Shown here one piece after another: positions 9,523 to 45,196 of a stretch of DNA of 64,000 nucleotides; positions within the stretch are counted from its first letter, which is position 1, and each line of letters begins with the position of its first letter. The notes under the pieces are model-generated. The model saw nothing but the letters and a program-made list of their open reading frames with translations, ran no database searches and had not been told where the DNA came from. Made by a program: the position numbers and the translations under genes. Source of the DNA: Cytobacillus oceanisediminis (lineage in GTDB: Bacteria; Bacillota; Bacilli; Bacillales; Cytobacillaceae); assembly GCF_022811925.1 (NCBI RefSeq), contig NZ_CP065511.1, positions 582,001 through 646,000 on the forward strand, in the 5' to 3' direction.

Positions 9523-9632
9523 TTGGCCGATAAACTGCTATGTTTGGCCGATAAATATGGGGAATTGGCCGTTAAAACGTGATTTTTGGCCGTTAAAAGT
9601 ACTAATTTGGCCGATAAGTTGAAGAATCGGCC
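9523..9632 (+). repeat. Array 1: 21-bp-period TTGGCCGATAA repeats in the purF-purM gap
   Basis: TTGGCC begins at 9523, 9544, 9565, 9586 and 9607, exactly 21 bases apart, and a degenerate TCGGCC follows at 9627. The core extends to TTGGCCGATAA or TTGGCCGTTAA while the bases between cores vary. The array starts eight bases after the purF stop. In one frame it reads as LADK/LAVK heptads but a stop interrupts, so it is not a gene. The function is unknown. Confidence 0.85.
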
Positions 9633-9670
9633 TTTATATGATTAAGAAAGTACCTTTGAAATACGATAAC

Positions 9671-9796
9671 TGTCTAGCTCCAGCGCCTACCCCCTCGAGG
9701 TCATAAGCCAATCCTCCCAGAAAGGCAAAGAACGCCTTCCCGAGAGGCTCGTCTTATGCTTGTCAGGGGTGAACAAGGCGCTTGCGCTTTTCTAAT
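9671..9796 (+). repeat. Long palindromic interspersed repeat, copy 1
   Basis: This imperfect palindrome of about 125 bases has end arms CAGCGCCT (left) and AAGGCGCTTGCGCT (right), with further internal pairing such as ATAAG/CTTAT. Its first 30 bases (9673-9702) match 18323-18352 at 28 positions. The middle parts of the two copies are unrelated in sequence. It lies within the transcribed pur operon and ends just before the purM ribosome binding site. Confidence 0.8.
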
Positions 9797-9813
9797 ATGG
9801 GGTGAAAAAACAG

Positions 9814-10839
9814 ATGGCAAATGCATATAAACAGGCCGGAGTAGATATTGAAGCTGGCTATGAAGCAGTTTCCCGCATGAAAAAGCATGTACAGAAGACG
9901 ATTCGTCCTGGTGTGCTTGGAGGTTTGGGCGGATTTGGCGGCATGTTCGATCTATCTGAACTTAACCTGAAGGAACCGGTTTTGGTATCAGGTACAGATG
10001 GTGTCGGCACGAAGCTGATGCTCGCTTTTATGATGGATAAGCATGACACGATTGGGATTGATGCGGTCGCAATGTGTGTAAATGATATTGTCGTACAGGG
10101 AGCGGAACCTCTTTATTTCTTGGATTATATCGCCTGCGGAAAAGCGGCGCCAGAACGGATTGAGGCGATTGTTAAAGGTATTGCGGATGGATGCGAACAG
10201 GCTGGATGTGCACTCGTAGGCGGTGAAACAGCCGAAATGCCTGGCATGTACAGTGAAGAAGAATATGATCTTGCCGGATTTGCGGTCGGTGCCTGTGAAA
10301 AATCCAATCTGATTAATGGTGCGGACATCAATGCAGGAGATGTGCTGATCGGTCTTGCATCCAGCGGGATCCACAGCAATGGCTACTCACTTGTCCGAAA
10401 GCTGTTTTTCGAGAAAGCGAATTTGTCCTTAACAGATCATGTAGAAGAATTAGGCTGCACTTTAGGGGAAGAGCTGCTTCGCCCTACAAAAATTTATGTA
10501 AAGCCGCTTCTATCAGCTATGAAGCAATTCAAGCTGAAAGGCATGGCACATATTACCGGCGGCGGATTTATTGAAAATATCCCGCGCATGCTGCCTGAAG
10601 GTCTTGGCGCCCAGCTTAGTGAAAGCAATTGGGAAGTGCCGCCTGTGTTCACGGTTATGGAGAAGATCGGCGGACTGGAACGCAAAGAAATGTACAACAT
10701 TTTTAATATGGGAACAGGCATGGTGATTGCAGCGGATAAAGCAAATGCTGATGAACTGATCGCCTATTTTAATGAAATTGGAGAAAAAGCCTATCTAATG
10801 GGGACAGTAACGGATCGGGAAGGAATTGAAATTCTGTAA
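9814..10839 (+). CDS. purM: Phosphoribosylformylglycinamidine cyclo-ligase (AIR synthetase)
   Basis: PurM closes the imidazole ring, converting FGAM to AIR with ATP. The chosen ATG (9814) gives 341 residues starting [19 protein letters not shown], which lines up with the B. subtilis N terminus. An in-frame GTG at 9802 is embedded in the GGGGTGA ribosome binding site and is therefore rejected. The ATP-binding glycine-rich stretch and GTDGVGTKL are present. The 298-base gap upstream holds array 1 and the palindromic repeat. Confidence 0.95.
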
Positions 10840-10852
10840 TTTGGAGGAAGTC

Positions 10853-11434
10853 ATGAAAAAAATCGCAGTGTTTGCTTCCGGAAGCGGAACGAACTTTCAG
10901 GCCATTGCCGATGCTGTAAAAAAAGGTGATTTGCAGGCTGAGATCGTCTTGTTTGTCTGTGATCGGCCAGGTGCATACAGCACCCAGCGTGCACAAAACG
11001 AACAAGTTCCGCAGTTTGTTTTTTCAGCTAAAGACTATGCTGGCAAAGCAGAGTACGAAAGAGCGATTTTGCAAAGGCTGAAGGAGAGCGGCGCCGAGTA
11101 TATTATTCTCGCAGGCTATATGAGACTGATTGGCCCGACGCTTTTGAAAGAGTTTGAAGGCAGGATTATAAATATCCATCCTTCTCTTCTTCCCGCTTTT
11201 CCAGGTAAGGATGCAATTGGCCAGGCGTTATCTGCCAATGTGAAGGTAAGCGGTGTGACGGTTCATTTTGTAGATGAAGGCATGGATACTGGGCCGATTA
11301 TCGCTCAAGCGCCAGTTGATATAAATGCGGGTGAAACGCTGGAAAGCCTTCAGAAGAAGATACATGAAGTCGAGCACAAACTTTATCCGCAGGTTTTGCA
11401 AAATCTTTTCTATACTAAAATGGTAGAGAACTAA
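10853..11434 (+). CDS. purN: Phosphoribosylglycinamide formyltransferase
   Basis: PurN transfers a formyl group from 10-formyl-tetrahydrofolate to GAR. The 193-residue protein begins [18 protein letters not shown]. It contains the catalytic Asn-His in [12 protein letters not shown] and the conserved Asp in [11 protein letters not shown]. The ATG follows TTGGAGGAAG at a good distance; a longer frame from 10826 overlaps purM and has no ribosome binding site. It is transcribed with purM and purH. Confidence 0.96.
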
Positions 11435-11468
11435 AGTTTATCATTCAACAGAGTCAGGGGGAGCGAAC

Positions 11469-13004
11469 ATGAAGAAACGTGCATTAATCAGTGTTTCCGA
11501 CAAAAATGGCATAACAGAATTTGCCCAGCAGTTAAGCGAACTGGGGTTTGAAATTATCTCAACAGGCGGTACAAAAAAAGCGCTGGAAGAGAGTGGAGTT
11601 CCCGTTATCGGCGTAAGTGATGTGACAGGCTTTCCGGAAATTTTGGAAGGGCGTGTGAAAACATTAAATCCAATGATTCATGGCGGGCTGCTGGCAAAGC
11701 ATGGAGAACCAGGCCACAAACAGCAGCTTGAGGAGCATGGGATTCAGCCTATCCAGGTTGTGTGCGTGAATTTGTATCCGTTCCAGCAAACTATCGCTAA
11801 GCCAGATGTGACAGTAGAGGATGCCATTGAGAATATTGATATCGGCGGTCCGGCCATGCTTCGTGCTTCCGCCAAGAATCATGACTATGTAACGGTTGTG
11901 GTGGATCCGGCCGATTATGAAACAGTTCTTTCACAGCTAAAGGAAACCGGAGAGGTTCAAAAGGAAACACGCCGCAGACTTGCTGCGAAAGTTTTCCGCC
12001 ATACAGCTGCCTATGATGCGATGATCGCTGAATATATGACAGATTTGGCAAATGAAGAAACGCCTGAAAAATTAACGGTTACGTATGAACTGAAGCAAAC
12101 ATTGAGATACGGGGAGAATCCGCATCAAAAGGCTGCTTTTTACCGCAAGCCGCTTGGTTCTGAATTTTCGATTGCTAACGCTGAACAGCTTCACGGCAAG
12201 GAATTATCCTACAACAATATCAATGATGCGGATGCAGCTCTCCAAATCGTAAAAGAATTCTCAGAGCCTGCAGCAGTTGCTGTTAAGCATATGAATCCTT
12301 GCGGAGTGGGGACTGGGGAAAATGTATTCGAAGCTTTTTCAAAAGCTTTCGAGGCGGATCCTGTATCTATCTTTGGCGGCATTATTGCCCTGAACAGGGA
12401 AGTAGATGCTGAGTCAGCGAAAAAGCTATATGAAATTTTCCTTGAAATCATCATTGCACCTTCCTTCTCAAACGAAGCGCTTGAGATTTTAAAAGGGAAA
12501 AAGAATCTTCGTCTGCTGACAATTCCTTTTAATGGAAAAAAGAAAGCCGAGATGAGATTATCCGCAATTGAAGGCGGCTTGCTGACGCAGGAATATGATC
12601 TATTCACTCTTGAAGATGCAGAAGTAAAAGTTGCGACCAAGAGAGAGCCAACAGAAGAAGAGTGGAAAGCACTGAAGCTGGGCTGGAAAGTCGTAAAGCA
12701 TGTGAAATCCAATGCGATTGTCGTAAATGATTCAAACATGACACTTGGAGTCGGTGCCGGGCAGATGAACCGTGTTGGCTCTGCCAAAATTGCACTTGAA
12801 CAGGCTGGAGCAAAAGCGAACGGTGCGGTAATGGCATCCGATGCCTTTTTCCCAATGAACGATACGGTTGAAGCGGCAGCCAAAGCAGGCATCACAGCCA
12901 TCATCCAGCCGGGAGGGTCCATCCGTGATGAGGATTCCATCAAAAAGGCTGATGAGTACGGCATTGCAATGGTCTTTACAGGCGTACGTCATTTTAAACA
13001 TTAA
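11469..13004 (+). CDS. purH: Bifunctional AICAR formyltransferase/IMP cyclohydrolase
   Basis: PurH carries out the last two steps to IMP. The 511-residue protein has an N-terminal MGS-like cyclohydrolase domain ([19 protein letters not shown]) and a C-terminal AICAR transformylase domain containing [10 protein letters not shown]. The ATG follows a CAGGGGGAGCG site. Only 34 bases separate it from purN. A 31-base repeat remnant begins at the base after its stop. Confidence 0.97.
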
Positions 13005-14433
<1,429 letters not shown>

Positions 14434-14456
14434 ATTGTCAGCTCCTTTCAATTTTC

Positions 14457-14486
14457 CAGCCCCCATATAGGGAGCTGGATTTTTTA
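14457..14486 (+). terminator. Terminator of the purine operon
   Basis: CCAGC at 14457-14461 pairs with GCTGG, with an inner CCC/GGG stem, followed by ATTTTTT. The T-run lies on the plus strand only, so it ends the purD transcript but should not block minus-strand transcription into the 37-residue gene. Confidence 0.8.
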
Positions 14487-14493
14487 AAGAAAT

Positions 14494-14784
14494 TTAAGAT
14501 GGATTATACGGGAGAATTTCCTCAACAGCCTCATCATTATTGTGATTGCCTTCCTGCTTTCTCTTTTCCTGAACCATGTCCTGGCCACTTTCAAAAAGAG
14601 CTGTCAAAGGGCAAAAGCGGACAATTCCCTCTGCCACCTTCATGCCTCCCAGCATGGCCATCATGAGATAAGAGTCCCGCCAAGGCCTTTTCACAAGCTT
14701 TGAAGTGCTCCAGGCTAAGACAGTTAATCCGACTGTTATGCGTACTAAGGCATTTACAATGCCGATATTTGGTTTTACATTCAT
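14494..14784 (-). CDS. DUF2892 (YgaP-like) membrane protein
   Basis: This 96-residue protein starts MNVKPNIGIVNALVRI and has two hydrophobic segments (about residues 9-27 and 39-57), matching the DUF2892 fold. The tail from about residue 66 is polar and acidic. The start at ATG 14784 is preceded by GGTGAG; an upstream in-frame GTG at 14802 is less likely. It lies 60 bases upstream of the EYxxD gene on the same strand, so the two may be cotranscribed. The function is unknown. Confidence 0.78.
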   Translation of the reverse strand: MNVKPNIGIVNALVRITVGLTVLAWSTSKLVKRPWRDSYLMMAMLGGMKVAEGIVRFCPLTALFESGQDMVQEKRKQEGNHNNDEAVEEILPYNPS

Positions 14785-14844
14785 AGTTCTCACCACTTTC
14801 ACAAAATTTTTACAATCTTTTACTGATTCTTTAATGCGTTAAAC

Positions 14845-14965
14845 AGTGAAATATGTTACTATAGTAAAACAGGAGAAATGAAAGGGCTTTCTTTATTGAT
14901 TTAAAGCCATTTCACTCATTGATTTTATTCTAAAATCAGAGTCTTTTATATATAGATATCAACAA
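14845..14965 (+). promoter_or_regulatory. yerA promoter region with two leader hairpins
   Basis: A TACTAT -10-like box near 14854 could start transcription. Downstream, TGAAAGGGCTTT and AAAGCCATTTCA (about 14879-14914) form an 11/12-bp stem, followed by a small GATTTT/AAAATC stem near 14930. A TTGATT ... TATATA pair offers a second promoter. No known riboswitch consensus is visible. The assignment is tentative. Confidence 0.35.
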
Positions 14966-14975
14966 GGGAGGGAGT

Positions 14976-16721
14976 ATGGTGCTGGAACAGCGTTACCGTT
15001 GGAAAAACAGGCACTTGCGTGAACATGTTTCCGTATTGGACGGAAAACTGTCACCGACGATATTACTAAAGGACGCTCGTTATCTGAATCAGGCACTTCG
15101 CAAATGGATAACAGCAAATATATGGATTTATGGCGACCGTATTGTTTATGTGGGCGAAAAGCTGCCGGGAAAAATAGAACAGTGTGAGGTCGTTGATTGT
15201 ACAGGGCTCACGCTGGTTCCTGGATATATTGAGCCGCATGCACATCCATTTCAATTATATAATCCCCATTCTCTGGCGAGCTATGCATCGCAGTTTGGTA
15301 CAACAACCTTGATTAATGACAATATGGTGCTTGCTTTACAGCAGGATAAAAAGAAAGCGTTTTCTTTTTTGAAGGAAATGAGAAACATGCCTGCAACAAC
15401 CTATTGGTGGTGCCGATTTGATGCCCAAACGGAAATCCAGCATGAAGAATCCGTTTTTTCGCACGGGAACGTTAAATCATGGCTTGAGCATGATGCTGTG
15501 CTTCAGGGAGGAGAGCTGACTGGCTGGCCGAAGCTATTGGATGGCGATGATATGATGCTTCATTGGATTCAGGAGACAAAGCGGATGAGGAAAAAGATTG
15601 AAGGCCATTTTCCGGGGGCATCCGAAAAAACGCTGGCAAAGCTTATGCTGCTTGGTGCTGATTGCGACCATGAGTCGATGACGGGAAAGGATGTTTATAA
15701 TCGTCTTTTACAGGGATATACCGTATCTCTCAGATATTCTTCCATCCGTCCCGATCTGCCGGTTTTATTGGACGAGATGCATGAAATCGGCATTGATCAA
15801 TATGATCGGATGATCTTCACAACAGATGGTTCCTTTTCCTCCTTCTATGAACAGGGAATCATTGATCATATGATTCGCATCGCCATAGATAAAGGAGTAC
15901 CGGATATCGATGCTTATAATATGGCTACCATTAATGTGGCCCGTCATTATGGAATCGATTATTTGCATGGCTCCATTGCGACAGGAAGGGTGGCCAATAT
16001 TAATTTCCTGTCAGATGAAAAAGAACCAACTCCATTATCTGTTATTGCAAAAGGGGAATGGGTGAAAAGAGACGGTGAAAACTTGCACGCCTATAAGCCT
16101 GTAGAATGGGAAGAATACGGCTTTGAACCGCTGGATATTGATTGGGATCTGACTGCTGATGATATGCAATTCTCGATGCCTTTCGGGATAAAACTGGAGA
16201 ATGCGGTTATTACGAAGCCCTACTCCATCACGATTGACGTATCATCCGAAGAACTGGAGAAAGACCATGATGAATGTTTCTTCATGCTTGTTGACCGGAA
16301 TGGACACTGGCGCATAAATACGGTACTAAAAGGTTTCTCGAAGAGCCTGGATGGAATGGCAAGTTCCTTTTCTAATACCGGTGACATTATCTTAATAGGA
16401 AAAAGCAAACAGGAAATGCTGAATGCTTTTAACCGGCTCAAAGAAATTGGCGGAGGCATTGTCATATCAGAAGGGGGAAGAATTGTCCAGGAAATGGAAC
16501 TCCGCTTAAAGGGTGTGATGTCCCATAAAAATGTGGAGGAATTAATGGAGGAAGAAAAACAGCTGGTGCATTATTTGCGTGATCAAGGCTATAGACATGA
16601 AGATCCAATGTATACGCTGCTCTTTTTCTCTTCAACGCATCTGCCCTACATTAGGATTACCCAGCAGGGAATGTATGATGTAATGAATAAAACGGTACTC
16701 TTTCCAACGATAATGCGTTAA
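14976..16721 (+). CDS. yerA: Adenine deaminase-like amidohydrolase YerA
   Basis: This 581-residue amidohydrolase-superfamily protein is related to adenine deaminase (adenine to hypoxanthine and ammonia) and is orthologous by position to B. subtilis YerA. Metal-binding PGYIEPHAHP follows the N-terminal beta-sandwich. FTTDGSFSS and IDYLHGSIATGRVANI are in the positions expected for the family. The catalytic activity of YerA-type proteins is less certain than for AdeC. The ATG follows AAGGGAGGGAGT. Its position directly after the purine operon fits purine salvage, but it has its own promoter region. Confidence 0.85.
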   Translation: MVLEQRYRWKNRHLREHVSVLDGKLSPTILLKDARYLNQALRKWITANIWIYGDRIVYVGEKLPGKIEQCEVVDCTGLTLVPGYIEPHAHPFQLYNPHSLASYASQFGTTTLINDNMVLALQQDKKKAFSFLKEMRNMPATTYWWCRFDAQTEIQHEESVFSHGNVKSWLEHDAVLQGGELTGWPKLLDGDDMMLHWIQETKRMRKKIEGHFPGASEKTLAKLMLLGADCDHESMTGKDVYNRLLQGYTVSLRYSSIRPDLPVLLDEMHEIGIDQYDRMIFTTDGSFSSFYEQGIIDHMIRIAIDKGVPDIDAYNMATINVARHYGIDYLHGSIATGRVANINFLSDEKEPTPLSVIAKGEWVKRDGENLHAYKPVEWEEYGFEPLDIDWDLTADDMQFSMPFGIKLENAVITKPYSITIDVSSEELEKDHDECFFMLVDRNGHWRINTVLKGFSKSLDGMASSFSNTGDIILIGKSKQEMLNAFNRLKEIGGGIVISEGGRIVQEMELRLKGVMSHKNVEELMEEEKQLVHYLRDQGYRHEDPMYTLLFFSSTHLPYIRITQQGMYDVMNKTVLFPTIMR

Positions 16722-16813
16722 AATATAAAAGTAATGCAATATAATAGAGATAAAAACTGCTCAGTGGAGCTAACATAGAAACTGCATCATAGCAAAATAC
16801 ACAGGGGTGCTAA

Positions 16814-17869: not shown

Positions 17870-17909
17870 TTATGTACAAAACTATTACAATAAAGGGGTA
17901 TGCAAATAT

Positions 17910-18218: not shown

Positions 18219-18233
18219 ATATTCCTTTTGCTT

Positions 18234-18322: not shown

Positions 18323-18493
18323 TCTAGCTTCAGCGCCTAGCCCCTCGAGGTCGCTTCTGGCCAGCTGATGAAGTCAAAAAAACGACTTCATCCACTGACC
18401 TTCCGACGTACAGGATATACTAGTGCCGACGTTGCCACAGGACGTGGCGGCATTTAGTTGACGTTCATCCCTTCCAATGGCGCTTCAGCTTTT
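18323..18493 (+). repeat. Long palindromic interspersed repeat, copy 2
   Basis: This 171-base copy shares its first 30 bases with copy 1 (28 matches to 9673-9702). It ends GGCGCTTCAGCTTTT, which pairs with the AGCTTCAGCGCC start. The interior differs and holds its own hairpin GAAGTC/GACTTC near 18370-18392. It lies between the yerC terminator and the pcrB promoter. Confidence 0.8.
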
Positions 18494-31703: not shown

Positions 31704-31722
31704 GGGGGAAAGCATCACAATA

Positions 31723-31833
31723 CAGGCCGAAATGCGGAGTTTACCGGCCAAATTTAATAAAATACCGGCCGAAATGCGGGATTTACCGGCCAAATCTAAA
31801 AAATACCGGCCGATACTTCAGCATTTACCGGTC
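31723..31833 (+). repeat. Array 2: 21-bp-period TACCGGCC repeats
   Basis: The core begins at 31723 (CAGGCC), 31744, 31765, 31786, 31806 (CCGGCC) and 31828 (CCGGTC): steps of 21, 21, 21, 20 and 22. Cores extend alternately as CCGGCCAAAT and CCGGCCGAAAT. The array fills the gap between the yueI terminator and the convergent cupin gene. An open frame reading PAEMRDLPAK heptads crosses it but runs through the terminator. Confidence 0.85.
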
Positions 31834-31853: not shown

Positions 31854-32210
31854 CTATCCCAAAGGCTTCAGGTACTGATGCGGATCCAAATCAGGACCTT
31901 CAATCACAATTGCAGTCATGCCAAGGTAAGAACCTGATTCATGTTCCTCGCCTTCAGACCAATAAACAGCGGTTCCTTTTTGGACTGCAATTTGCTCACC
32001 GCCAGCAGTTTTAACCCATCCTTCGCCGTCAACGATGAGAAATAGCTGGGGACAAGCTGCCGGATGCATGCCTAAAACACTAATATCCTTAAGATGGATA
32101 CACCCAACTGTAGCTGTTTTGTTCCTGATAATCGGACTGATGCTGGCATTGTGGCTGCTGAATTGAGCAATTTCCCTGCTGACATCCAAATCAAATCGGA
32201 AAAATTCCAT
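31854..32210 (-). CDS. Cupin-domain protein
   Basis: This 118-residue single-domain cupin has the beta-barrel motifs HPAACPQLFLIVDGEGWV and GTAVYWSEGEEHES. The first motif lacks the full H-x-H pattern, so metal binding is uncertain. The ATG at 32210 follows AGGAGGTG seven bases upstream; a longer frame from 32234 begins before this site. The gene is monocistronic and converges on array 2. The substrate is unknown. Confidence 0.8.
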   Translation of the reverse strand: MEFFRFDLDVSREIAQFSSHNASISPIIRNKTATVGCIHLKDISVLGMHPAACPQLFLIVDGEGWVKTAGGEQIAVQKGTAVYWSEGEEHESGSYLGMTAIVIEGPDLDPHQYLKPLG

Positions 32211-32355
32211 AATCGCACCTCCTGTACTTATCATCGCATCCCCATTTATTCGGTTTCGCTTTTCATTTATCCTCTAAAAAGAGAAGCAAACACACAATTC
32301 ACTCAACTCATGGTAAAATAAGCAGAAGATTGCTGAACCAGCTGGCGTGCGCGTA

Positions 32356-37445: not shown

Positions 37446-37472
37446 AAAGCAGTGCCAAGTGCGGCACTGCTT
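37444..37472 (-). terminator. Shared hairpin between nitronate monooxygenase and ppaC
   Basis: AAGCAGTGCC (37447-37456) and GGCACTGCTT (37463-37472) form a perfect 10-bp stem. The T-run (TTTTT) lies on the minus strand, so it mainly ends the ppaC transcript. The plus-strand tail TTCTGTCTT is weaker. Confidence 0.8.
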
Positions 37473-37477
37473 CTGTC

Positions 37478-38410: not shown

Positions 38411-38580
38411 AAGTCCTACTCCTTCTATATGTAATGTTGGTTTTGGCATGCTGTTATTTTACCATATTTCTAATGTAATGGCGGTACAGGGAAAAATCAA
38501 ATTTTGTTTTTTCCAATTGTTAGAGGAAGCTTGGATGTTTTGGAGAAATAAATTAAGGATAGTAAGGAGGAGAGACATAC

Positions 38581-39333
38581 ATGGGGAAAGTAGCTATAAT
38601 TTCTGATATTCATGGAAATATCACAGCTCTGGAGGCGGTGCTGGACAATATCCGCGAACGAGGAATAGAGATTATTTTTTGCCTGGGTGATTTAATAGGA
38701 AAAGGTCCCAACTCCCGTAAAGCAGTTGAACGGATAAAAGAAACCTGTGAAGTGGTCCTCCTTGGAAATTGGGATGATTTCATGCAGAAGCCGCTGGACT
38801 TTGAAGAAGGTCAATGGCATCAGAGACAGCTGGGGGAAGAGGCGTTAGCCTATTTAGGAACACTGCCGTTCCATCACGATTTTTATATGAGCGGTAAATA
38901 TGTAAGGCTCTACCATGCTTCCGCCAAAAGCATTTATCATCGGGTTGTGCCGATGCGGGATTCTTATGAAGAAAAGCTCGCTATGTTTGAGAATACAGAA
39001 AATATTAATGTCGGAGAGGAGGGACTAATTCCGGATGTTGTCGGTTACGGGGATATTCATGCTGCTTTGATTGAACCGGTTCATCCGCAAAGGACACTAT
39101 TCAATACAGGAAGCGTTGGGAATTCCCTGGATATTCCTCAGGCAACCTATGCCATTTTGCATGGGGAATACGAGTCCAAAGAACCTGCACCGTTTTCTAT
39201 CGAGATAGTCCGTGTCCCTTATGATATTGAAAAAGAAATCAGCATTGCCAAAGAAATGGGAATGCCGAATCTTGAGGCCTACGCGCTCGAGCTGCGTGAA
39301 GCGAGATATAGGGGGGCGCCTAAGAAAGTATAA
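38581..39333 (+). CDS. Metallophosphoesterase family protein
   Basis: This 250-residue calcineurin-like phosphoesterase (YfcE/diadenosine tetraphosphatase-like) has the metal-site motifs SDIHGN (8-13), GDLIGKGP, GNWDDF in the GNH(D/E) position, and GDIH in the GHTH position. The changes in the last two suggest altered metal coordination. It is cytosolic. The ATG follows AAGGAGGAGAG. The substrate cannot be told from sequence. Confidence 0.85.
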   Translation: MGKVAIISDIHGNITALEAVLDNIRERGIEIIFCLGDLIGKGPNSRKAVERIKETCEVVLLGNWDDFMQKPLDFEEGQWHQRQLGEEALAYLGTLPFHHDFYMSGKYVRLYHASAKSIYHRVVPMRDSYEEKLAMFENTENINVGEEGLIPDVVGYGDIHAALIEPVHPQRTLFNTGSVGNSLDIPQATYAILHGEYESKEPAPFSIEIVRVPYDIEKEISIAKEMGMPNLEAYALELREARYRGAPKKV

Positions 39334-39336
39334 TCA

Positions 39337-39428
39337 CGGATAAGAAAGAAATAGCCTGTACGCAAATAATTAAAATTATACGTTCATAAAACAAGGCTAA
39401 GCGCACACACATACTTATCCGCACATAA
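39337..39428 (+). repeat. Array 4: degenerate 21-bp-period CGnnnATAA repeats
   Basis: CGGATAA (39337), CGCAAATAA (39361), CGTTCATAA (39381), CGCACACA (39402) and CGCACATAA (39420) are spaced 24, 20, 21 and 18 bases. It is less regular than arrays 1-3 but of the same build, and lies between two convergent 3' ends. Confidence 0.5.
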
Positions 39429-39463
39429 ATTACTGATACAGACAGTTTTTTTACATTTAACTC

Positions 39464-39499
39464 AAAAAAGCTGACTTCCCGCCCAATGCGGAGTCAGCT
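39464..39499 (-). terminator. Terminator of the STAS-domain gene
   Basis: On the minus strand AGCTGACT and AGTCAGCT (39499-39492 and 39476-39469) form a stem with additional inner G-C pairs, followed by TTTTT. Confidence 0.85.
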
Positions 39500-39509
39500 A
39501 TTTCCGTTA

Positions 39510-40535
39510 TTAATAGATCTTCCTGCCTTTTTTGGACAGAGCATAATAAATGCCGTGCTGCAGATTGGTGAAGCAGTTAAATTTAGAAAGATTAAAATTA
39601 GTTTCCGTAATTTTTGTGCCGAGTTCCGGTGAAATGCCAACCAGGATGGTTTCTGTGCCAATCAAGTTGGCTGCTGCAGCCAGCTTACTTAAGAATTCGA
39701 CTGTATAGGCACTGATGGACTGATTCAGCCCGGTCAAGTCCAGGATTAGGCAATCTGCCTGGTGCTTCGGCAGGCTGTGAAGAGTTTTATCCACGAGTTC
39801 TTCAGAGCGGAATTCATCGTATCTTCCCAAAAGCGGGACAACAACGATTCCATCCAGAACAGGAATAACCGGTGAAGAGATTTCTTTAACAAGCTGCTTT
39901 AATTCAATCGTCCGGTCTTCCACTAATTTTTCAAGCTCGCTGATCCTCTTTGATTCTTCACGTCTCGCCAAAGCGTGGATATTTTCCTCAACAGTAACGC
40001 TTGAAGGGAAATAATCAAGCTGGGTGTAATCATGGCCTGCTAACTGATCAGCCGATTTTTCATACCAAAGGCTTGTTCCGAACAAAGCAGAAAATATTCC
40101 TGCAAAGTGTCCTGGCAGAAATGTTCCAGACTCATTTTTTTCTTGTTCTTTGTTAATCTTGTATTCCCAGCTGTCCACGGTTTTGACCCTGGCTGATTTA
40201 TTTTCTGGATCCAGGTCTGTGATTACGAATTTTCCCCAGCCGGCAGAAGCATATATTCTGGGGATAATAGTAGCCACTTCGACTATGGGCAAATTTAAGT
40301 CTTTGAAGAATTTCCCTACCACCATTCCCTGCCTGAAGCCGGTGGTCTCAAGTACAAGGCTGGAAGTTTCTTTTCCTGAAATCTCTTCAATCGTATCGAA
40401 GAAGCTTTTCATGGCGGATTTTATCCAAAATAGGACGGCATCATCACCTTCAAAATTAAACAGGCCTTTTTCCAGGTCCCAATTAAAATCAAAACCATCA
40501 ATTTTTGTTTCAAGCACTAGGCTTTCTTCTGTCAT
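39510..40535 (-). CDS. RsbR-type STAS-domain protein with V4R-like sensory domain
   Basis: This 341-residue cytosolic protein has three parts. The N-terminal region (about 30-190) resembles V4R/XylR-N ligand-binding domains, including GWGKFVITDLDPENKSARVK. A helical linker follows (about 195-225, REESKRISELEKLVEDRTIEL). The C-terminal STAS domain (about 228-330) contains LILDLTGLNQS, near where RsbR/RsbS proteins are phosphorylated. RsbR paralogues build the stressosome that controls sigma-B. The ATG follows a GGGGG site. A near-perfect sigma-B promoter lies upstream, so it is probably a stress-induced stressosome-like sensor. The V4R assignment is by eye. Confidence 0.75.
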   Translation of the reverse strand: MTEESLVLETKIDGFDFNWDLEKGLFNFEGDDAVLFWIKSAMKSFFDTIEEISGKETSSLVLETTGFRQGMVVGKFFKDLNLPIVEVATIIPRIYASAGWGKFVITDLDPENKSARVKTVDSWEYKINKEQEKNESGTFLPGHFAGIFSALFGTSLWYEKSADQLAGHDYTQLDYFPSSVTVEENIHALARREESKRISELEKLVEDRTIELKQLVKEISSPVIPVLDGIVVVPLLGRYDEFRSEELVDKTLHSLPKHQADCLILDLTGLNQSISAYTVEFLSKLAAAANLIGTETILVGISPELGTKITETNFNLSKFNCFTNLQHGIYYALSKKGRKIY

Positions 40536-40604
40536 ACCATTACCCCCTGATATTGATATGTATATTTAAGCAACTTTATTTGTCTCGTAAGTAACCAATA
40601 ATAT

Positions 40605-40629
40605 ATACCCTCAACTTCAAACCTTAAAC
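40605..40629 (-). promoter_or_regulatory. Sigma-B promoter of the STAS-domain gene
   Basis: On the minus strand GTTTAA (40629-40624), a 13-base spacer and GGGTAT (40610-40605) match the sigma-B consensus exactly (GTTTAA-N12-14-GGGTAT). Transcription would start near 40598, about 60 bases before the STAS gene start. Confidence 0.82.
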
Positions 40630-40642
40630 CTATTCTAGAATA

Positions 40643-41302
40643 TTATCTGCGTCTGTTTATATTCAATTTTTTCGACTTTTCATTTACATAAGCGTACATA
40701 ATCTCCTTCTCATTCAAATTGTTTTGCCGCAGCTGCTCTAAAAGCCAATCTTTAGTCTGTCCCAGCAGCTGGAGATTTCGCGTCTGAATTCTGCCATCCA
40801 CAATAACCGCAATAGGGAGACCCTCATCCTGTATGGAGATATTTAAATGTTCGACTGTTACGGGCGTATTGGCCACTTTAGGGATGATGCTCACTTCACC
40901 GATAGGCTCAAGAATGGCGTAATCCACATCCGCAATTTTGGGATAGCCTTTACTTCTTAAGATAGACAGCAGCTGAGTCATGGAGAGGTGGGCTTTTTCC
41001 AGATTGTCTTCTAGAATTTCCCCATTTTTAATCAGCATCGTCGGTTCCCCAAGAAAAAATCGGTTACCAATTTGGTTTAAAGTCAAATAGGAAAAGAGAA
41101 TATGAAGGCCTACAAGAATGGTCAAGGCTGCTAGTGTCGGCCAGTATTCGGTGCTGATGAGAGGTTCAGAGGCAACTGTGCCAACGATTATGATGGCGAC
41201 AAGATCATAAGGAGTCATCTGGATAATTGTCGATTTGCCCATCAGTCTCATAATCATGATTGTGATTAAGTAAAGACTTAATATTTTTAAGATCAAGAAC
41301 AT
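40643..41302 (-). CDS. DUF421 (YetF-like) membrane protein
   Basis: This 219-residue protein has three N-terminal membrane segments (about residues 2-20, 30-50 and 55-77) followed by a soluble DUF421 domain with LIKNGEILEDNLEKAHLSM and VIVDGRI. YetF-family proteins of Bacillus are linked to spore germination or membrane physiology, but the molecular function is unknown. The ATG at 41302 follows AAAGGAG; an upstream TTG is too close to this site. It lies upstream of the STAS gene in the same direction. A second DUF421 gene lies at 59969. Confidence 0.85.
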   Translation of the reverse strand: MFLILKILSLYLITIMIMRLMGKSTIIQMTPYDLVAIIIVGTVASEPLISTEYWPTLAALTILVGLHILFSYLTLNQIGNRFFLGEPTMLIKNGEILEDNLEKAHLSMTQLLSILRSKGYPKIADVDYAILEPIGEVSIIPKVANTPVTVEHLNISIQDEGLPIAVIVDGRIQTRNLQLLGQTKDWLLEQLRQNNLNEKEIMYAYVNEKSKKLNINRRR

Positions 41303-41373
41303 ATGCAAGCTCCTTTGTCTGCACTTTTATTCAAAGGATTTGCTTAATGAACGGCTTTCATGTGAAAAACAAT

Positions 41374-41403
41374 AAAAAAAGCCCGAATGCAGGATCCGGG
41401 CTT
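41374..41403 (-). terminator. Terminator of plsY
   Basis: On the minus strand AAGCCCG and CGGGCTT pair, followed by TTTTTTT, just after the plsY stop. Confidence 0.88.
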
Positions 41404-41406
41404 CGA

Positions 41407-42033
41407 TTATGCTCGTTTTTTATGATCTCTTGGAGGGATGCGGTCATCTTTCAGGCGCTTATCATTGATTTTAGGCTCATTTTTATCAATGAAGTTATTA
41501 ATGTTCGAACGGTGAAGGAAAATCAAAAATAATAGGAAAATAGAAAAGATAAGTTCATGTTCAGTGCCTTCGGTAAATAAGGAATAGAAAAGTAAAGATG
41601 CACCCACCGATAAAGAGCCAAAAAATACATACTTCGTTGCGTAAATGACTGCGACAAAAGAAATGTAGGCGATTAAAAACATCCAAATATTTGCTGCAAG
41701 CAATACACCTGCCGTGGTTGCGATGGCTTTTCCTCCGCGGAATCCTGCAAAGATCGGGAAGCAGTGGCCGGCTACTGCAACCATCCCGACCATTAACGGA
41801 TCGGGCTCAGCGTTCAGGATGACAGGCAATGCTGCAGCAGCTGCTCCCTTGCCCACATCCACCAGCAGAACTGCGATAGCTGCTTTTTTGCCAAGTACCC
41901 TTAGTGTATTAGTCGCACCAGGATTATTGCTGCCATGATCACGGATGTCGATCCCAAAGGCATATTTGCCAATCAATAAGGCTGTAGGAATTGATCCTAT
42001 CAGGTACGCTGCCAAGTAAATAAGAAATGTCAT
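41407..42033 (-). CDS. plsY: Acyl-phosphate:glycerol-3-phosphate acyltransferase PlsY
   Basis: PlsY transfers an acyl group from acyl-phosphate to glycerol-3-phosphate, the first step of phospholipid synthesis. The roughly 208-residue protein has five membrane segments and the three conserved motifs GSIPTALLIGK, DHGSNNPGATNTLRVLGKK and GHCFPIFAGFRGGKA. ATG 42033, with AAAAGGATGG upstream, is preferred to ATG 42042, which overlaps that site. It is monocistronic with its own terminator. Confidence 0.95.
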   Translation of the reverse strand: MTFLIYLAAYLIGSIPTALLIGKYAFGIDIRDHGSNNPGATNTLRVLGKKAAIAVLLVDVGKGAAAAALPVILNAEPDPLMVGMVAVAGHCFPIFAGFRGGKAIATTAGVLLAANIWMFLIAYISFVAVIYATKYVFFGSLSVGASLLFYSLFTEGTEHELIFSIFLLFLIFLHRSNINNFIDKNEPKINDKRLKDDRIPPRDHKKRA

Positions 42034-42248
42034 CGTATCCATCCTTTTTCATCAATATATTCAATAATAGTTTAGAGTTGTCCATTATTTAAAAATATTT
42101 TCACTGCCCTCCTCTATGTAGTCATCGCTTACAGTTTACCATATAATGGTTTTGTTCGAAGCGGGAAATTAATCATTATTTTATTATTAAGCGATGAAAA
42201 AATATGGAAATAAAAGCTTTTTGGTGAGATTTTTTATAAAAAAAAGTA
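42034..42248. other. AT-rich divergent spacer between plsY and the anti-sigma-like gene
   Basis: This part of the 397-base gap carries A/T runs and a possible minus-strand promoter for plsY around 42130-42160. No reading frame, known RNA or repeat could be supported. Confidence 0.4.
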
Positions 42249-42277
42249 TTGAATTATTCGATTCTCTCGATTATGAT
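42249..42277 (+). promoter_or_regulatory. Sigma-A promoter of the anti-sigma-like gene
   Basis: TTGAAT (42249-42254) and TATGAT (42272-42277) are 17 bases apart. The leader to the start codon is about 150 bases, long for a gene of this size. Confidence 0.65.
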
Positions 42278-42430
42278 TGTTTCGGCACTCAAAAAGAAAG
42301 AATGTTATCCGAATAGATATAAGGGAAGCTGATATATTCCAGGATTTATTTGATCAGCAAAATACCCAGCAGGATATTTTCATGTTCCAGATCACTCCGC
42401 TGTCAGGAACATTGGAAGGAGATGATTTTC

Positions 42431-42790
42431 ATGGAGCACTTTTCATTGGAAGAATGGCGGAAATATGTGAAAAATGAGCTGTCAGAACCAGAGCGTGAAC
42501 TCTATGAAGATCATCTCTATATATGTGATCAATGTCTGGAGGTATACCTCGAAGCAATGGACGAGGAGGAGGATTCCTTCCCGGAAATGCCGGGAGATGA
42601 TGAGTTTACCAATCTTGTTATGGCTCAAATTTCAGGAGGAATTCCGGAAGAAGCTGACAAGGAACACAATGAACTTCCCAATAAAGAATCCTGGTTTGAG
42701 CGCTGCTTTCCCATTGCATTTGCCTGCTTTATGGTGATTGGGGGATTAGTAACTATGTACCGGGATAAAAACCAAATAGATCAGGATTAA
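42431..42790 (+). CDS. Orphan zinc-binding anti-sigma factor-like membrane protein
   Basis: This 119-residue protein has an N-terminal zf-HC2-like motif (HLYICDQC, His-x3-Cys-x2-Cys), an acidic linker, and one membrane helix near residues 94-112. That is the layout of ZAS-type anti-sigma factors. The ATG at 42431 follows AAGGAG; an in-frame start at 42350 is far from any site. No ECF sigma gene is adjacent, so its partner, if any, is encoded elsewhere. It has its own promoter and terminator. Confidence 0.72.
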   Translation: MEHFSLEEWRKYVKNELSEPERELYEDHLYICDQCLEVYLEAMDEEEDSFPEMPGDDEFTNLVMAQISGGIPEEADKEHNELPNKESWFERCFPIAFACFMVIGGLVTMYRDKNQIDQD

Positions 42791-42818
42791 CTCTTAACGG
42801 ACAGTTAGGAGTTTTTTT
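42789..42818 (+). terminator. Terminator after the anti-sigma-like gene
   Basis: AACTC-TAAC pairs with GTTA-GAGTT (one internal mismatch), followed by TTTTTTT. Confidence 0.85.
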
Positions 42819-42917
42819 GTGTGCAAAAAGTTTGAAAATTCATTTAAAAATAATTACAATAAAAAGACTAATCAGTTTATTTTATAAGATAAGAATATGC
42901 CCTGGGGAGTGAGAAAT

Positions 42918-43175
42918 ATGGGAAGAAGGCAGGTTCCGCAGGAAATGCAAAAAAAGAGCAAGAGCATCCATCTTGAGCAATGGATCTGGGACTTGGCAGA
43001 GCAGATGCAGCCGTGCCGTTCAGCAGCTATCAGAGATTTATTTCTCGCTAAAGTAAAAGAAGACTTGGTAATGGCCGGATTGGCGGAGGAAAATACTGAA
43101 ATCACAAGTGAACATGCCAGCCTATATATAGAAGAAATTCTGAAAAGAAGTGACATCAGCCAAAAGTGCTGCTGA
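42918..43175 (+). CDS. Small basic protein, ribbon-helix-helix-like
   Basis: This 85-residue protein is not recognised by name. The order basic N terminus, SIHLEQWIWDLAEQM, then SAAIRDLFLAKV resembles a ribbon-helix-helix (CopG/MetJ-type) DNA-binding fold, but this is judged by eye. It ends in CC. The ATG at 42918 follows GGGGAGTGAG. It lies 58 bases upstream of a TetR regulator gene in the same direction and may be cotranscribed with it. No toxin partner is visible. Confidence 0.6.
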   Translation: MGRRQVPQEMQKKSKSIHLEQWIWDLAEQMQPCRSAAIRDLFLAKVKEDLVMAGLAEENTEITSEHASLYIEEILKRSDISQKCC

Positions 43176-43233
43176 TAATATATGCGCGGGAATAACATGA
43201 AGAGAATAAACCAAATACAATGGAGGGACAGAC

Positions 43234-43851
43234 TTGTCGCCTATCGTATCAGAGGAATATAAGCGGAAAAAAAAGAAAGAAATCCTGGCGGGCGCATTGG
43301 CCTGCTTTGCCAAAAAGGGATTTCAGGCAGCGACCATTGATGACATTGTCGCTTATTCAGGAATCAGCAAGGGAGCCATCTATAATTATTTTAAAAGCAA
43401 GGAAGAAATCTATCTGGAGCTTTTGAATGAGCAGACCGAATCAGCTAATGCAAGACTTGCAGAGAAAATTTCCATGTTCTCTTCAGCTGAAGAGAAACTG
43501 GAATATCTTTTTGATTTGTATAGGGATATGAGCCCATTCAGCCAGGAACGAAAAGATAGAATTACTGTACAGCTGGAATTTACGCTGCATTCCTCCAGAG
43601 ATGAGAACTTGAATCGAATTCTGAACGAGCGGGGAAAGAAGTTCTTTTTGAAATTGATAACAGATATTATGGAAGAAGGACAGACTGCCGGGGAATTCCG
43701 TCCGGATGCAGATCCAAACCATGTAGCGGGGTTATTCTGGACTTTTATGGACGGTGCAATGCTTCATAGAGTAATTAATGAAGAATATCCATATAAAACC
43801 ATTATAGATTATGTTAAGAGCCTTGTTTTGCAGAACCTAAAACAGGAATAA
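43234..43851 (+). CDS. TetR/AcrR family transcriptional regulator
   Basis: This 205-residue regulator has an N-terminal TetR helix-turn-helix (AKKGFQAATIDDIVAYSGISKGAIYNYF) and an all-helical ligand-binding domain. The start is TTG 43234 after TGGAGGGACAG. B. subtilis has the TetR regulator YerO followed by the swrC efflux gene between gatB and dgkB. This gene sits in the equivalent place, but no RND pump follows, so its target must be elsewhere or it autoregulates. Confidence 0.88.
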   Translation: MSPIVSEEYKRKKKKEILAGALACFAKKGFQAATIDDIVAYSGISKGAIYNYFKSKEEIYLELLNEQTESANARLAEKISMFSSAEEKLEYLFDLYRDMSPFSQERKDRITVQLEFTLHSSRDENLNRILNERGKKFFLKLITDIMEEGQTAGEFRPDADPNHVAGLFWTFMDGAMLHRVINEEYPYKTIIDYVKSLVLQNLKQE

Positions 43852-44108
43852 TGCTCAACAGCATCCTGCTTAATGCTGATTTTAGATTACATGTCCAAGA
43901 AATATAACTTAATTACGATACTTTTTTGCATAATGAGGGTATAATTCATTTGTGCATCTGACCACTTGTGAAAATAGCTGGAAGTGAATAGAATAGAAAC
44001 GGATGGCAGTGAATAATTGCTAAGCCGAGGACTATCCGCTATGATGTAAAAAGATGGAATAGTATATACGGATTAAGTTTAGATATTTCAATAATAGGAT
44101 GATGGGCT

Positions 44109-45044
44109 ATGAAAAGAGCAAGAATTATTTATAATCCGACTTCAGGCCGGGAAATTTTTAAAAGACATTTAGCAGAGGTTTTGCAAAAGCTGGAGAGCGC
44201 AGGATATGAAACCTCATGCCATGCCACCACAGGTGAAGGGGATGCGATTAAAGCTGCACGGGCAGCTGTTGAACGCCGCTTCGATTTAGTCATTGCAGCA
44301 GGCGGCGACGGTACAATTAACGAGGTGGTAAACGGACTCGCTGAACAGGATTACCGTCCGCGCCTCGGCATTATCCCAACGGGCACAACCAATGATTTTG
44401 CCCGTGCGCTCCATATTCCAAGAGATGTGGAAGCGGCTGCTGATATCATTGTAAAAGGAGATACCATACCTGTCGATATTGGCCGCATAAATGAAAAATA
44501 TTTTATTAATATTGCTGGTGGCGGAAGGCTGACAGAGCTGACTTACGAGGTGCCAAGCAAGCTTAAAACAATGATTGGCCAGCTTGCCTATTACCTTAAG
44601 GGAATCGAAATGCTGCCTTCCTTCCGTTCAACCGAAGTAAGCATCGAGTTTGACGGGAAAATCTTTGAAGGTGAAGCCATGCTTTTCCTTGTCGGTCTGA
44701 CAAATTCAGTAGGCGGGTTTGAAAAGCTAGCTCCGGATTCCTGTATAAATGACGGGCTATTTTCCTTGCTGATATTAAAGAAAACTAACCTTGCTGATTT
44801 TATCCGGATCGCGACAATGGCTGTCCGGGGCGAACATGTAAAAGATCCGAACGTCATCTATACGCAGGCAAACCGCATCAAAGTACAATCCAAAGAGAAA
44901 GTCCAGCTCAATCTTGACGGTGAATTTGGCGGGCTGCTTCCTGCTGAATTCGTAAACCTGTACAGGCATTTGGAAGTATTTGTCCCAATTGACCAGATTC
45001 GTGAAGAAGACCGCCCGACCGATTGGGAAAGTTCCCACGAATAA
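44109..45044 (+). CDS. dagK: Diacylglycerol kinase (DgkB/DagK)
   Basis: This soluble diacylglycerol kinase phosphorylates diacylglycerol, released mainly during lipoteichoic acid synthesis, to phosphatidate. The 311-residue protein has the kinase motif AAGGDGTINEV (Gly65-Asp67-Gly68) and IPTGTTNDFARAL, with the C-terminal beta-domain of the LCB5/DAGK family. The order gatCAB - TetR - dgkB - yefA is conserved with B. subtilis. The start is ATG 44109. The 257-base gap upstream has a TATAAT at 43940 without a clear -35. Confidence 0.94.
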   Translation: MKRARIIYNPTSGREIFKRHLAEVLQKLESAGYETSCHATTGEGDAIKAARAAVERRFDLVIAAGGDGTINEVVNGLAEQDYRPRLGIIPTGTTNDFARALHIPRDVEAAADIIVKGDTIPVDIGRINEKYFINIAGGGRLTELTYEVPSKLKTMIGQLAYYLKGIEMLPSFRSTEVSIEFDGKIFEGEAMLFLVGLTNSVGGFEKLAPDSCINDGLFSLLILKKTNLADFIRIATMAVRGEHVKDPNVIYTQANRIKVQSKEKVQLNLDGEFGGLLPAEFVNLYRHLEVFVPIDQIREEDRPTDWESSHE

Positions 45045-45048
45045 TAGG

Positions 45049-45080
45049 AAGTCCGCTCTATAACAGAGCGGGCTTTTATT
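45049..45080 (+). terminator. Terminator after dagK
   Basis: AAGTCCGCTCT pairs with AGAGCGGGCTT around ATAAC, followed by TTATTTT. Confidence 0.87.
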
Positions 45081-45106
45081 TTAAAATTCATGAAATTGTG
45101 AACGAT

Positions 45107-45196
45107 GTAAATAGAATACTATTTACTGCAAATAGAAGGGTGATTCTGTAAATAGACTGGAAAATATGCTAATAAACGGTTAGATTTTGCAAATAG
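45107..45196 (+). repeat. Array 3: 21-bp-period TGYAAATAG repeats
   Basis: GTAAATAG (45107), GCAAATAG (45128), GTAAATAG (45148), GCTAATAA (45169) and GCAAATAG (45189) are spaced 21, 20, 21 and 20 bases. The first copy also forms a perfect inverted repeat with CTATTTAC (45119-45126). The array lies between the dagK terminator and the rlmCD promoter. Confidence 0.8.

Follow-up and report, generated by a model that had tools for sequence, protein, structure and literature searches.

Dispersed intergenic arrays of short direct repeats at a 20/21-bp step in Cytobacillus oceanisediminis and its relatives

Introduction

Short tandem direct repeats spaced at about two helical turns are known from plasmid iterons and from type II centromeres (parC, ParR). 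According to PMC9426499, ParR of pSK41 binds 20-bp repeats, and PMC5016525 describes ParR as a superhelix wrapped by DNA, with one iteron per dimer. Dozens of arrays with a comparable layout lie between genes in Cytobacillus oceanisediminis and many of its relatives. They differ from the plasmid systems in that they are dispersed on the chromosome. The four arrays in the stretch analysed here (64,000 nucleotides, referred to as the window) have ordinary metabolic-type genes as neighbours, among which a Pfam check revealed neither rep nor parMR genes. A type II partition system was considered and rejected: the genome has three ALP_N matches, and the ParM-like gene at ~156 kb is preceded by unrelated repeats. 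Two arrays, at 160342 and 163152, are located within ~7 kb of this gene.

Dispersed intergenic copies that are gained and lost between relatives are also typical of REP/BIME, ERIC, RUP, BOX and other interspersed elements (see also PMC2267715). Unlike these, the arrays are direct repeats with a fixed step of 20/21, several core classes per genome and drifting spacers. A palindromic stem-loop unit, as in REP/BIME, was not found, since opposite-strand core pairs in genome G000 have no 20/21 period and folding is weak. CRISPR loci consist of repeats with non-homologous acquired spacers. The arrays share with them a leader-like flank (in class D), the alternation of repeat and variable spacer and the loss of whole units, whereas their unit is only 20-21 bp long and the spacers of the array next to purF, which can be aligned between species, are not of the acquired, non-homologous kind. 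DnaA boxes and parS/Noc sites are chromosomal clusters of binding sites as well. By eye, some class C units resemble the DnaA box, but classes A, A' and D do not look like the consensus of either kind of site, and on this basis DnaA boxes were set aside as an explanation. The original prediction that the arrays match no nameable feature class agrees with the literature searched, in which we found no described family and no account of such 20/21-bp arrays, intergenic tandem repeats of Cytobacillus included; as the coverage was partial, an earlier description may exist.

Results

Four arrays in the window

The arrays and the genes that flank them are given below; genes were called by a simple script whose gene ends are sound and whose starts are approximate.

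8118..9515, plus strand: purF (amidophosphoribosyltransferase), upstream of array 1; Pfam domains
9523..9632, plus strand: array 1, class A (TTGGCCGATAA / TTGGCCGTTAA), 5 units, step 21; ortholog in relatives
9802..10839, plus strand: purM (AIR synthase), downstream of array 1; Pfam domains
31721..31833, minus strand: array 2, class A' (GGCCGGTA on the minus strand), 6 units
31854..32234, minus strand: possible cupin-domain gene, 3' end before array 2; Cupin_2 below the Pfam cut-off
38581..39333, plus strand: metallophosphoesterase gene, upstream of array 3; Pfam domains
39337..39440, plus strand: array 3, class C/G (CGCACATAAA), 5 recognisable units, irregular, by eye
44109..45044, plus strand: diacylglycerol-kinase-type gene, upstream of array 4; Pfam domains; used as a search query
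45106..45196, plus strand: array 4 (TGCAAATAG / TGTAAATAG), 5 units, the fourth degenerate
45317..46699, plus strand: RNA uracil methyltransferase-type gene, downstream of array 4; Pfam domains

Array 1 begins 7 bases past the stop of the gene that we take to be purF on the basis of its Pfam domains and the operon order of B. subtilis. Its units start at 9523, 9544, 9565, 9586 and 9607 (steps 21, 21, 21, 21), and the inverted half-unit ATCGGCC at 9626 closes the array. This half-unit is able to pair with the last core as a hairpin (-11.1 kcal/mol, z -2.1 in folding), for which a simple terminator scan gave no terminator call. Array 2 is read from the minus strand, where the first core follows the stop of the cupin gene after 20 bases. 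Its units start at 31721, 31742, 31763, 31784, 31804 and 31826, with steps of 21, 21, 21, 20 and 22 in plus-strand order, and GGTAAAT and GGTATTT occur in alternate units (period 42, score 153). Because TACCGGCC is the reverse complement of GGCCGGTA, and only 1 base away from the array 1 core, arrays 1 and 2 represent one core in opposite orientations.

Array 3 starts 3 bases beyond the stop of the phosphoesterase gene. Its units, placed by eye at 39337, 39361, 39381, 39402 and 39420 (steps 24, 20, 21, 18), bear out its description as less regular than the others. Among relatives L049-L059 there are more regular and expanded arrays in the same slot, with steps of 20, 21, 20 and 21 in L059 and 13 chained units in L050, and we therefore take array 3 to be a decayed true array. 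Array 4 lies just beyond a terminator-like hairpin, seen by eye, that follows the kinase-type gene (presumably yerQ-like). It has unit starts at 45106, 45127, 45147, 45167 (degenerate) and 45188, steps of 21, 20, 20 and 21, and orthologs in L049, L051-L054 and L056. Overall, the neighbours are purF and purM, DUF1694 and cupin genes, phosphoesterase and STAS genes, and diacylglycerol kinase and RNA methyltransferase genes. The sole Rfam matches in the window are a purine riboswitch and one Bacillaceae-1 RNA, both away from the arrays.

The 20/21-bp period

The intergenic arrays with a 20/21-bp period were confirmed as real and far above chance. The array finder accepts steps of 19-23 only, and unrestricted distances were measured separately. 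Stretches selected for containing hits (9 of the first 20, the C2 stretch and 7 later ones) were excluded, together with the window, from all counts called unbiased. Among 83 arbitrary stretches (1.66 Mb) we found 12 intergenic arrays with at least four copies at steps 19-23, one part-genic array and no fully genic one, whereas five control step ranges in the same 1.66 Mb gave 0, 1, 0, 0 and 0 intergenic and 1, 4, 3, 3 and 0 genic arrays. Named Bacillaceae DNA (1.55 Mb) held 37 arrays at the test steps versus 2, 0 and 0 in controls. In 343 intergenic segments from 30 arbitrary stretches, triple 8-mer runs occurred five times at lag 20 and four times at lag 21 and were absent at lags 16-19 and 22-28; shuffled segments (mean of 5) gave 0.0 runs at lag 20 and 0.2 at lag 21. 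An absence of excess 20-22-bp periods from intergenic DNA had been named as the outcome that would speak against a common design; in the sampled genome the excess is present (12 versus 1).

Free distances between cores display the same pattern. In G252 they are exclusively 21, 42 and 63 (46, 36 and 25 pairs), in G115 and G090 exclusively 20-21, 40-42 and 60-63, and in G096 the latter ranges are joined by single pairs at 33 and 55. G000, with overlapping stretches counted once, has 102 core pairs at 20-21 as opposed to 0-4 at every other distance from 7 to 38. The step proposed originally, 21 bases, thus needs to be widened: the period is shared, but across 60 arrays the step is 20 in 114 and 21 in 147 of 275 cases, with a mean of 20.49 (finder restricted to 19-23).

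Twenty-one bases equal seven codons, and protein-coding heptad repeats would match the step of 21 that prevails throughout array 1 and mostly in array 2. Yet steps of 20 and 21 are intermixed and break any frame, so that seven codons are not the reason for the period. Moreover, no open frame is kept through the arrays, and 12 of the 13 unbiased arrays with at least four copies are intergenic, the remaining one being part-genic. We consequently discard coding heptads, to which we assign hardly any probability. One acidic coding repeat at the array step was encountered in a hit-selected stretch.

Core classes and genome-specific core forms

It had been proposed that the arrays share spacing and not sequence, each with a private core. 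The first half is valid insofar as one period is common to unlike cores, also in other genera, but cores are shared as well. Besides the identity of the array 1 and 2 cores, classes recur at many loci: TTGGCCGATAA has 22 exact copies in G000 (control, 2), and class D was found at 14 loci among those fetched. Most classes consist of a GC block followed by ATA, and ATA is present in conserved columns of 42 of 60 arrays, whereas shuffling the consensus letters gives an expectation of 18.1 arrays.

In each of four array-rich genomes, almost all CCGATA cores have a single form. In stretches picked for holding such arrays, the two letters 5' of CCGATA are GT in 57 of 58 cases in G252, TT in 37 of 39 in G115, GA in 104 of 110 in G096 and GG in 49 of 51 in G090. 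Chained CCGATA units in the bacterium studied here mainly have GA (57/90) or GG (24/90), the forms of G096 and G090. Units tend to alternate in an A-B-A-B fashion, lag-2 similarity being higher than lag-1 similarity in 22 and lower in 14 of 36 arrays.

Placement, orientation and folding

As had been noted, each of the four window arrays directly follows a terminator or the 3' end of a gene, but this placement is not general: the 32 array-bearing intergenic regions comprise 21 tandem, 8 convergent and 3 divergent ones. Arrays are co-oriented with the upstream gene in 32 of 50 cases (p = 0.065) and antisense in 18, a count that omits arrays lacking CGATA and two lacking an upstream gene. As there is no fixed orientation, an element of the DNA fits better than a sense RNA. 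Transcripts of 3' regions might nevertheless include the arrays, which would then be targets of an RNA-binding protein or fold into alternative hairpins, as the terminal hairpin of array 1 between purF and purM and the hairpin-like endings seen by eye after 3 of 11 listed class A/A' arrays (591525, 120993, 3992254) would suggest. Against this RNA-level reading stand the weak folding (mean z-score near -0.6 for each strand of 60 arrays), for which RNA structure was rejected as the explanation, the antisense arrays and the lack of an Rfam match at the window arrays; we deem it very unlikely.

The common spacing despite varying cores could also reflect nothing but the shape of the DNA. Phased at two-turn intervals, GC blocks and A/T tracts would bend or wrap it, and the arrays would serve as topological insulators between genes, with gyrase or a nucleoid protein devoid of sequence preference as example users. 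Compared with random intergenic windows, 36 arrays rank on average at the 68th percentile of predicted bending (KS p = 0.003), and convergent regions are slightly overrepresented (8/32 versus 12% overall). The bending effect is modest, though, the surplus of convergent regions is marginal (p = 0.047 relative to regions and 0.12 relative to bases), and both the near-uniform core forms and a coordinated core switch at the purF array point to sequence. We regard shape as an improbable sole cause.

Clustering near the replication origin was also considered, as classes A, A' and D seemed absent from 1.3-3.5 Mb among the matches listed. Since arrays of other classes are present there and some other parts have none, no such clustering is claimed.

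Evolution of the arrays among relatives

Cores change less than spacers at most, though not all, loci, and it is the spacers rather than the cores that stand out as fast against the flanks. In purF clade I, cores differ by 3.6% and spacers by 15.9%, whereas in clade II the cores (5.6%) differ more than the spacers (2.3%). At the slot downstream of the kinase gene, cores (13.0%) and spacers (23.4%) both exceed the neighbouring non-array DNA (5.6%). L233, with 3.7% for cores, 28.1% for spacers and 18.1% for flanks, is the sole locus with cores slower than the flank, on 3 genomes only, and in its display the left flank is missing for G008, G010 and G019. Cores and flanks are about equal at L017 (10.6% and 11.6%, spacers 31.9%; 4 rows) and at L027 (20.3% and 24.8%, spacers 35.4%; 7 rows, among them G008 with an array of a different class). 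At L189 (6 rows), cores (11.8%), spacers (15.2%) and flanks (14.8%) are alike; because its spacers are no faster than the flank, this array looks like an unconstrained relic. Rows of very unequal length were dropped from the rates at L233, L017, L027 and L189. The ortholog displays cover 13 of 14 relatives for L017, 9 of 14 for L027 (flanks not found in the others) and six for L189.

Comparison of the two purF clades shows a switch at one core position in every one of the four upstream units (161 of 161 comparisons), with spacers that, at 32% difference, can still be aligned; the chance of four out of five fixed core changes falling on one core position is 7.6e-4. In G024, two adjacent cores of the purF array have the same new base. 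At L027, in contrast to such coordination, units vary one by one. A single slot can carry different core classes in different species, and four different array cores occur across genera in the one that follows the diacylglycerol kinase gene. Close relatives lose arrays entirely or by whole units, which argues that no single examined array is essential.

These observations bear on a dispersed repeat family devoid of host function, whose arrays would arise and spread (class D with a common leader), grow and shrink by slippage, and stay internally alike through very short-tract conversion between mispaired cores, the spacers being left to drift. Gains and losses of whole units (the purF array of G003 is one short, G005 retains three cores at L233, and L050 has its chained units), the shared new base in G024, a leader consensus across 27 D-class rows (orthologs counted, some rows not matching), the recurrence of spacer variants within the long arrays of G096 and G090, and the uniform rates at L189 would all be expected of such a family. 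It leaves unexplained why unlike cores have one step and one orientation with other spacings near absent, and in a search for carriers, made for class D, one array had no match in plasmids and one had none in phages. As the cores mostly evolve no slower than the neighbouring DNA, a functionless family is almost as likely as the reading that we favour.

Discussion

Tentatively, we propose from sequence comparison that the arrays are iteron-like platforms for head-to-tail binding by a hypothetical DNA-binding protein. A directional core of ~8-9 bp (GC block, then ATA or ATAA) would be repeated head to tail once per two helical turns, which would place copies of the putative protein on the same side of the helix and let them bind cooperatively and wrap or stiffen the intergenic DNA. 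Specificity would differ from one core class to the next, with core and protein co-evolving. The period, the direct orientation, the near-uniform core forms in four other genomes and the turnover of classes in fixed slots are observed. From these we infer that the protein exists, that it binds cooperatively and that gene insulation or the organisation of the chromosome may be affected. A broader version, in which the platforms are dispersed and interchangeable parts of a hitherto undescribed Bacillales chromosomal code, class-specific putative proteins drift with the arrays into lineage dialects, and slots are re-occupied by the current class, appears doubtful.

Should a protein read the arrays, an appreciable share of the non-coding DNA in many Bacillales would have an unrecognised function, and core forms and coordinated switches would trace protein-DNA co-evolution at many sites simultaneously. 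Otherwise they offer a clear example of a bacterial repeat family in which just the core of 8-9 bp is homogenised and recurs at a fixed helical step, for which we know of no mechanism.

Several observations sit uneasily with the platform proposal: the uncoordinated variation at L027, the faster cores of purF clade II and the occurrence of the GA and GG forms in different genomes. Purely helical phasing would also permit spacings of 31 and 32, each of which is represented in G000 by a single pair.

The four arrays of the window

All four intergenic arrays of short cores placed in the window by the original prediction are present. Together with neighbouring elements they are:

1002-1103: purine riboswitch (RF00167), ahead of the pur genes
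9523..9632, plus strand: array 1, five TTGGCCG[AT]TAA cores, each step exactly 21, beginning 7 bases past the purF stop
9665-9800: dispersed element CTGTCTAGCTCCAGCGCC ... AAGGCGCTTGCGCTTTTC, distinct from the arrays, in the gap from array 1 to purM
18407-18473, minus strand: Bacillaceae-1 RNA (RF01690), 49.5 bits
31721..31833, minus strand: array 2, six units with the minus-strand reading GGCCGGTA, 20 bases after a minus-strand cupin-like gene
39337..39440, plus strand: array 3, irregular, with steps of 24, 20, 21 and 18 by eye
45106..45196, plus strand: array 4, following the diacylglycerol kinase gene, with one of its five units degenerate

Array 1 lies between the same-strand genes purF and purM and ends before purM. 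Its last core and an inverted half-unit, ATCGGCC at 9626, can form a hairpin (-11.1 kcal/mol), for which a simple terminator scan gave no terminator call. The place of array 3 holds more regular versions in relatives, one of them with 13 chained units. The cores had been taken as private to each array; this did not hold, as the classes recur at many loci and the GGCCGGTA core of array 2 is one base off that of array 1.

Several relatives lack the 9665-9800 element in the corresponding spacer, and one part of its left motif was found 22 times in 1.985 Mb. In the purF-purM spacer of G004 (L143) the array ends with its second unit; next to it begins, by eye, an apparent insertion-sequence transposase gene.

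Excess over chance and geometry of the units

Arrays with a 20/21-bp step exceed chance. The proposed check, a genome-wide excess of 20-22-bp periods, was carried out on sampled stretches of the genome of the window and revealed such an excess. Thirty 20-kb stretches placed arbitrarily supplied 343 intergenic segments, in which 8-mer runs of three copies occurred five times at lag 20 and four times at lag 21, but never at lags 16-19 and 22-28; shuffled segments gave 0.0 and 0.2 runs at lags 20 and 21. Across 83 arbitrary stretches (1.66 Mb), steps of 19-23 yielded 12 intergenic arrays of at least four copies, one part-genic and no genic array, whereas five control step ranges yielded 0, 1, 0, 0, 0 intergenic and 1, 4, 3, 3, 0 genic ones. 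This strict test of at least four copies extrapolates to roughly 40 arrays per genome. The 80 named loci, 1,545,501 bases with their genes, contained 37 arrays, as against 2, 0 and 0 in controls, six of the 37 coming from L105 alone.

As for the claimed common 21-bp period, the shared step stands, but lengths of 20 and 21 are mixed: in 60 arrays, a script admitting 19-23 only counted 147 steps of 21, 114 of 20, 13 of 19 and one of 22 (mean 20.49). Same-strand core distances were 21, 42 and 63 only in G252, and 20-21, 40-42 and 60-63 only in G115 and G090; G096 added single pairs at 33 and 55. The genome of the window has 102 same-strand pairs at 20-21, compared with 0-4 at every other distance from 7 to 38, and its opposite-strand pairs have no 20/21 period. 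Units thus follow one another head to tail, with hardly any spacings of one or three turns. Spacers also tend to alternate. In 36 arrays of this genome, mean similarity was 0.489 to the next-but-one spacer and 0.386 to the next (22 arrays higher, 14 lower; p = 0.0005 relative to arrays with their units permuted), and in four other genomes the next-but-one spacer was more alike in 39 of 49 arrays (p = 4e-5). Arrays thus often repeat, in effect, as two-unit blocks of about 41 bp, as array 2 does in the window.

Core classes and their exchange in fixed slots

Class A (GGCCGATA), A' (GGCCGGTA), D (GACCGATA), C/G (TTATGTGCGGATAA and its reverse complement) and other cores were each found repeatedly; TTGGCCGATAA has 22 copies in the genome (control 2). 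Conserved columns contained ATA in 42 of 60 array consensuses (18.1 with conserved letters shuffled) and GATA in 21 (4.1 shuffled), an excess due partly to repeated sampling of class A and D loci and to the six L105 arrays. The letters before CCGATA were GT (57/58), TT (37/39), GA (104/110) and GG (49/51), one form in each of four other genomes, counted in stretches picked for such arrays, where units within one array are not independent. Since GA (57/90) and GG (24/90) are also the two main forms in the genome of the window, forms are uniform within genomes yet not always different between them. At least 12 CCGATA pairs at array spacing occur in 28 of 299 genomes of the order, that of the window included (controls 0-5), with a maximum of 480 in G096 (control 0); with the CCGATA core alone tested, one of 100 other genomes of the phylum had a match, at a single place. 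A leader consensus common to D arrays (27 rows, orthologs included) ends in GCGAAGT and is most marked over its last 25 bases; by the strict pattern, six units were counted at seven of the 14 D loci.

Slots, i.e. fixed intergenic places, can be occupied by different classes in different relatives. At L017, readable in 13 of 14 relatives, we found A' in G001, G010, G005 and G011, preceded in the last two by a single A-like unit; G002 also had A', but with degenerate units. G008 and G024 carried D. In G009 and G012, A units led into a second array, which was mixed in G009 and A' in G012. G007 had a single unit, and G003, G019 and G023 had none. At this slot the genome of the window itself carries one A' unit along with three of A type. 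At L027 (readable in nine of 14), six relatives have A units, G008 has A' and two have none. Within 300 bp of the kinase gene 3' end, 12 of the 80 named loci carry an array of at least four copies, with four unrelated-looking cores.

Cores in the slot 3' of the diacylglycerol kinase gene
TGCAAATA: six loci near C. firmus
ATATTCCT: three Mesobacillus-like loci
CGCGGATA: B. massilionigeriensis
AAGATTAT/GAAAGATT: B. enclensis and Rossellomorea aquimaris

The kinase protein of the window is 100% identical to a Bacillus sp. NTK034 record and 96-99% to several C. firmus/C. oceanisediminis records, which places the organism, by sequence, in the firmus/oceanisediminis group of Cytobacillus; that of L093, titled C. 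oceanisediminis, is 82% identical. At the kinase slot, L093 (Cytobacillus oceanisediminis DE0166) and L101 (Chryseobacterium sp. ISL-80) share the ATATTCCT array with Mesobacillus subterraneus, so these record names may be wrong.

Core and spacer change and possible explanations

The purF-purM array exists in two versions among relatives, clades I and II. Their spacers are 32% different yet alignable, and one core position is altered in all four upstream units (161/161 comparisons); in the fifth, hairpin-forming core the base is unchanged. By chance, four out of five fixed core changes would hit a single core position with a probability of 7.6e-4. Differences inside clade I amount to 3.6% in cores and 15.9% in spacers, whereas clade II has the opposite sign (core 5.6%, spacer 2.3%).

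Rates of change: core, spacer, neighbouring flank
L233 (three genomes): 0.037, 0.281, 0.181
L017: 0.106, 0.319, 0.116
L027: 0.203, 0.354, 0.248
L189: 0.118, 0.152, 0.148
Kinase slot: 0.130, 0.234, 0.056 (flank promoter-like)

Cores are slower than spacers at all measured loci except clade II, barely so at L189, and clearly slower than flank at L233 only.

We tentatively read the arrays as a platform for a putative DNA-binding protein, which would recognise the core and whose copies would line up head to tail along the array, in the manner of ParR. This reading is drawn from the two-turn direct spacing, the directional cores and their near-uniform forms within genomes, as well as from the concerted change of cores whose spacers stayed alignable and from the turnover of classes at fixed slots. 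Its main rival, a repeat family homogenising its own cores by mispairing, ranks barely behind it, both at well under even odds; it is favoured by core rates near flank rates, by long arrays with recurring spacer variants, and by the loss of whole units in relatives, up to complete loss (at L233, G001 and G003 keep the leader with zero units). Weighing the flank rates made us lower our estimate for the platform and raise that for the repeat family. Spacers change faster than neighbouring non-array DNA at L017, L027, L233 and the kinase slot, which neither explanation predicts directly.

Comparison with known systems

ParR of pSK41 is described as binding 20-bp repeats (PMC9426499), and ParR as forming a superhelix with DNA wrapping (PMC5016525); the likeness lies in a protein sitting head to tail on cores, as it would on the arrays. 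The arrays would work like iteron arrays or type II centromeres, but those of the window lack adjoining rep or par genes and were therefore not filed under either. REP-type repeats are palindromes and CRISPRs have acquired spacers, unlike the arrays. A known Rfam RNA was rejected as their identity from matches within the window, and the titles and abstract openings listed by literature searches aimed at such arrays held no description of them.

Outside the window, at about 156 kb of its contig (L380 272-2085), lies a chromosomal gene for a 399-aa actin-like (ALP_N) protein; a 200-aa gene resembling a ParR adaptor comes next, and TTGTATAC/TGTAAAC repeats unlike the array cores stand upstream. 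Judged from sequence, this may be a chromosome-borne ParMRC set.

Genomic context

The 32 array-bearing intergenic regions are tandem (21), convergent (8) or divergent (3), compared with 66%, 12% and 22% of all intergenic regions; convergent regions alone are in excess at the 0.05 level, and they are so solely when compared by number of regions. A, A' and D arrays are co-oriented with the upstream gene in 16 of 25 cases in the genome of the window, and in 32 of 50 with other genomes added; arrays can point either way relative to that gene. GC skew changes sign at about 0.25 Mb and 2.6 Mb of the contig, where the chromosome origin and terminus probably lie.
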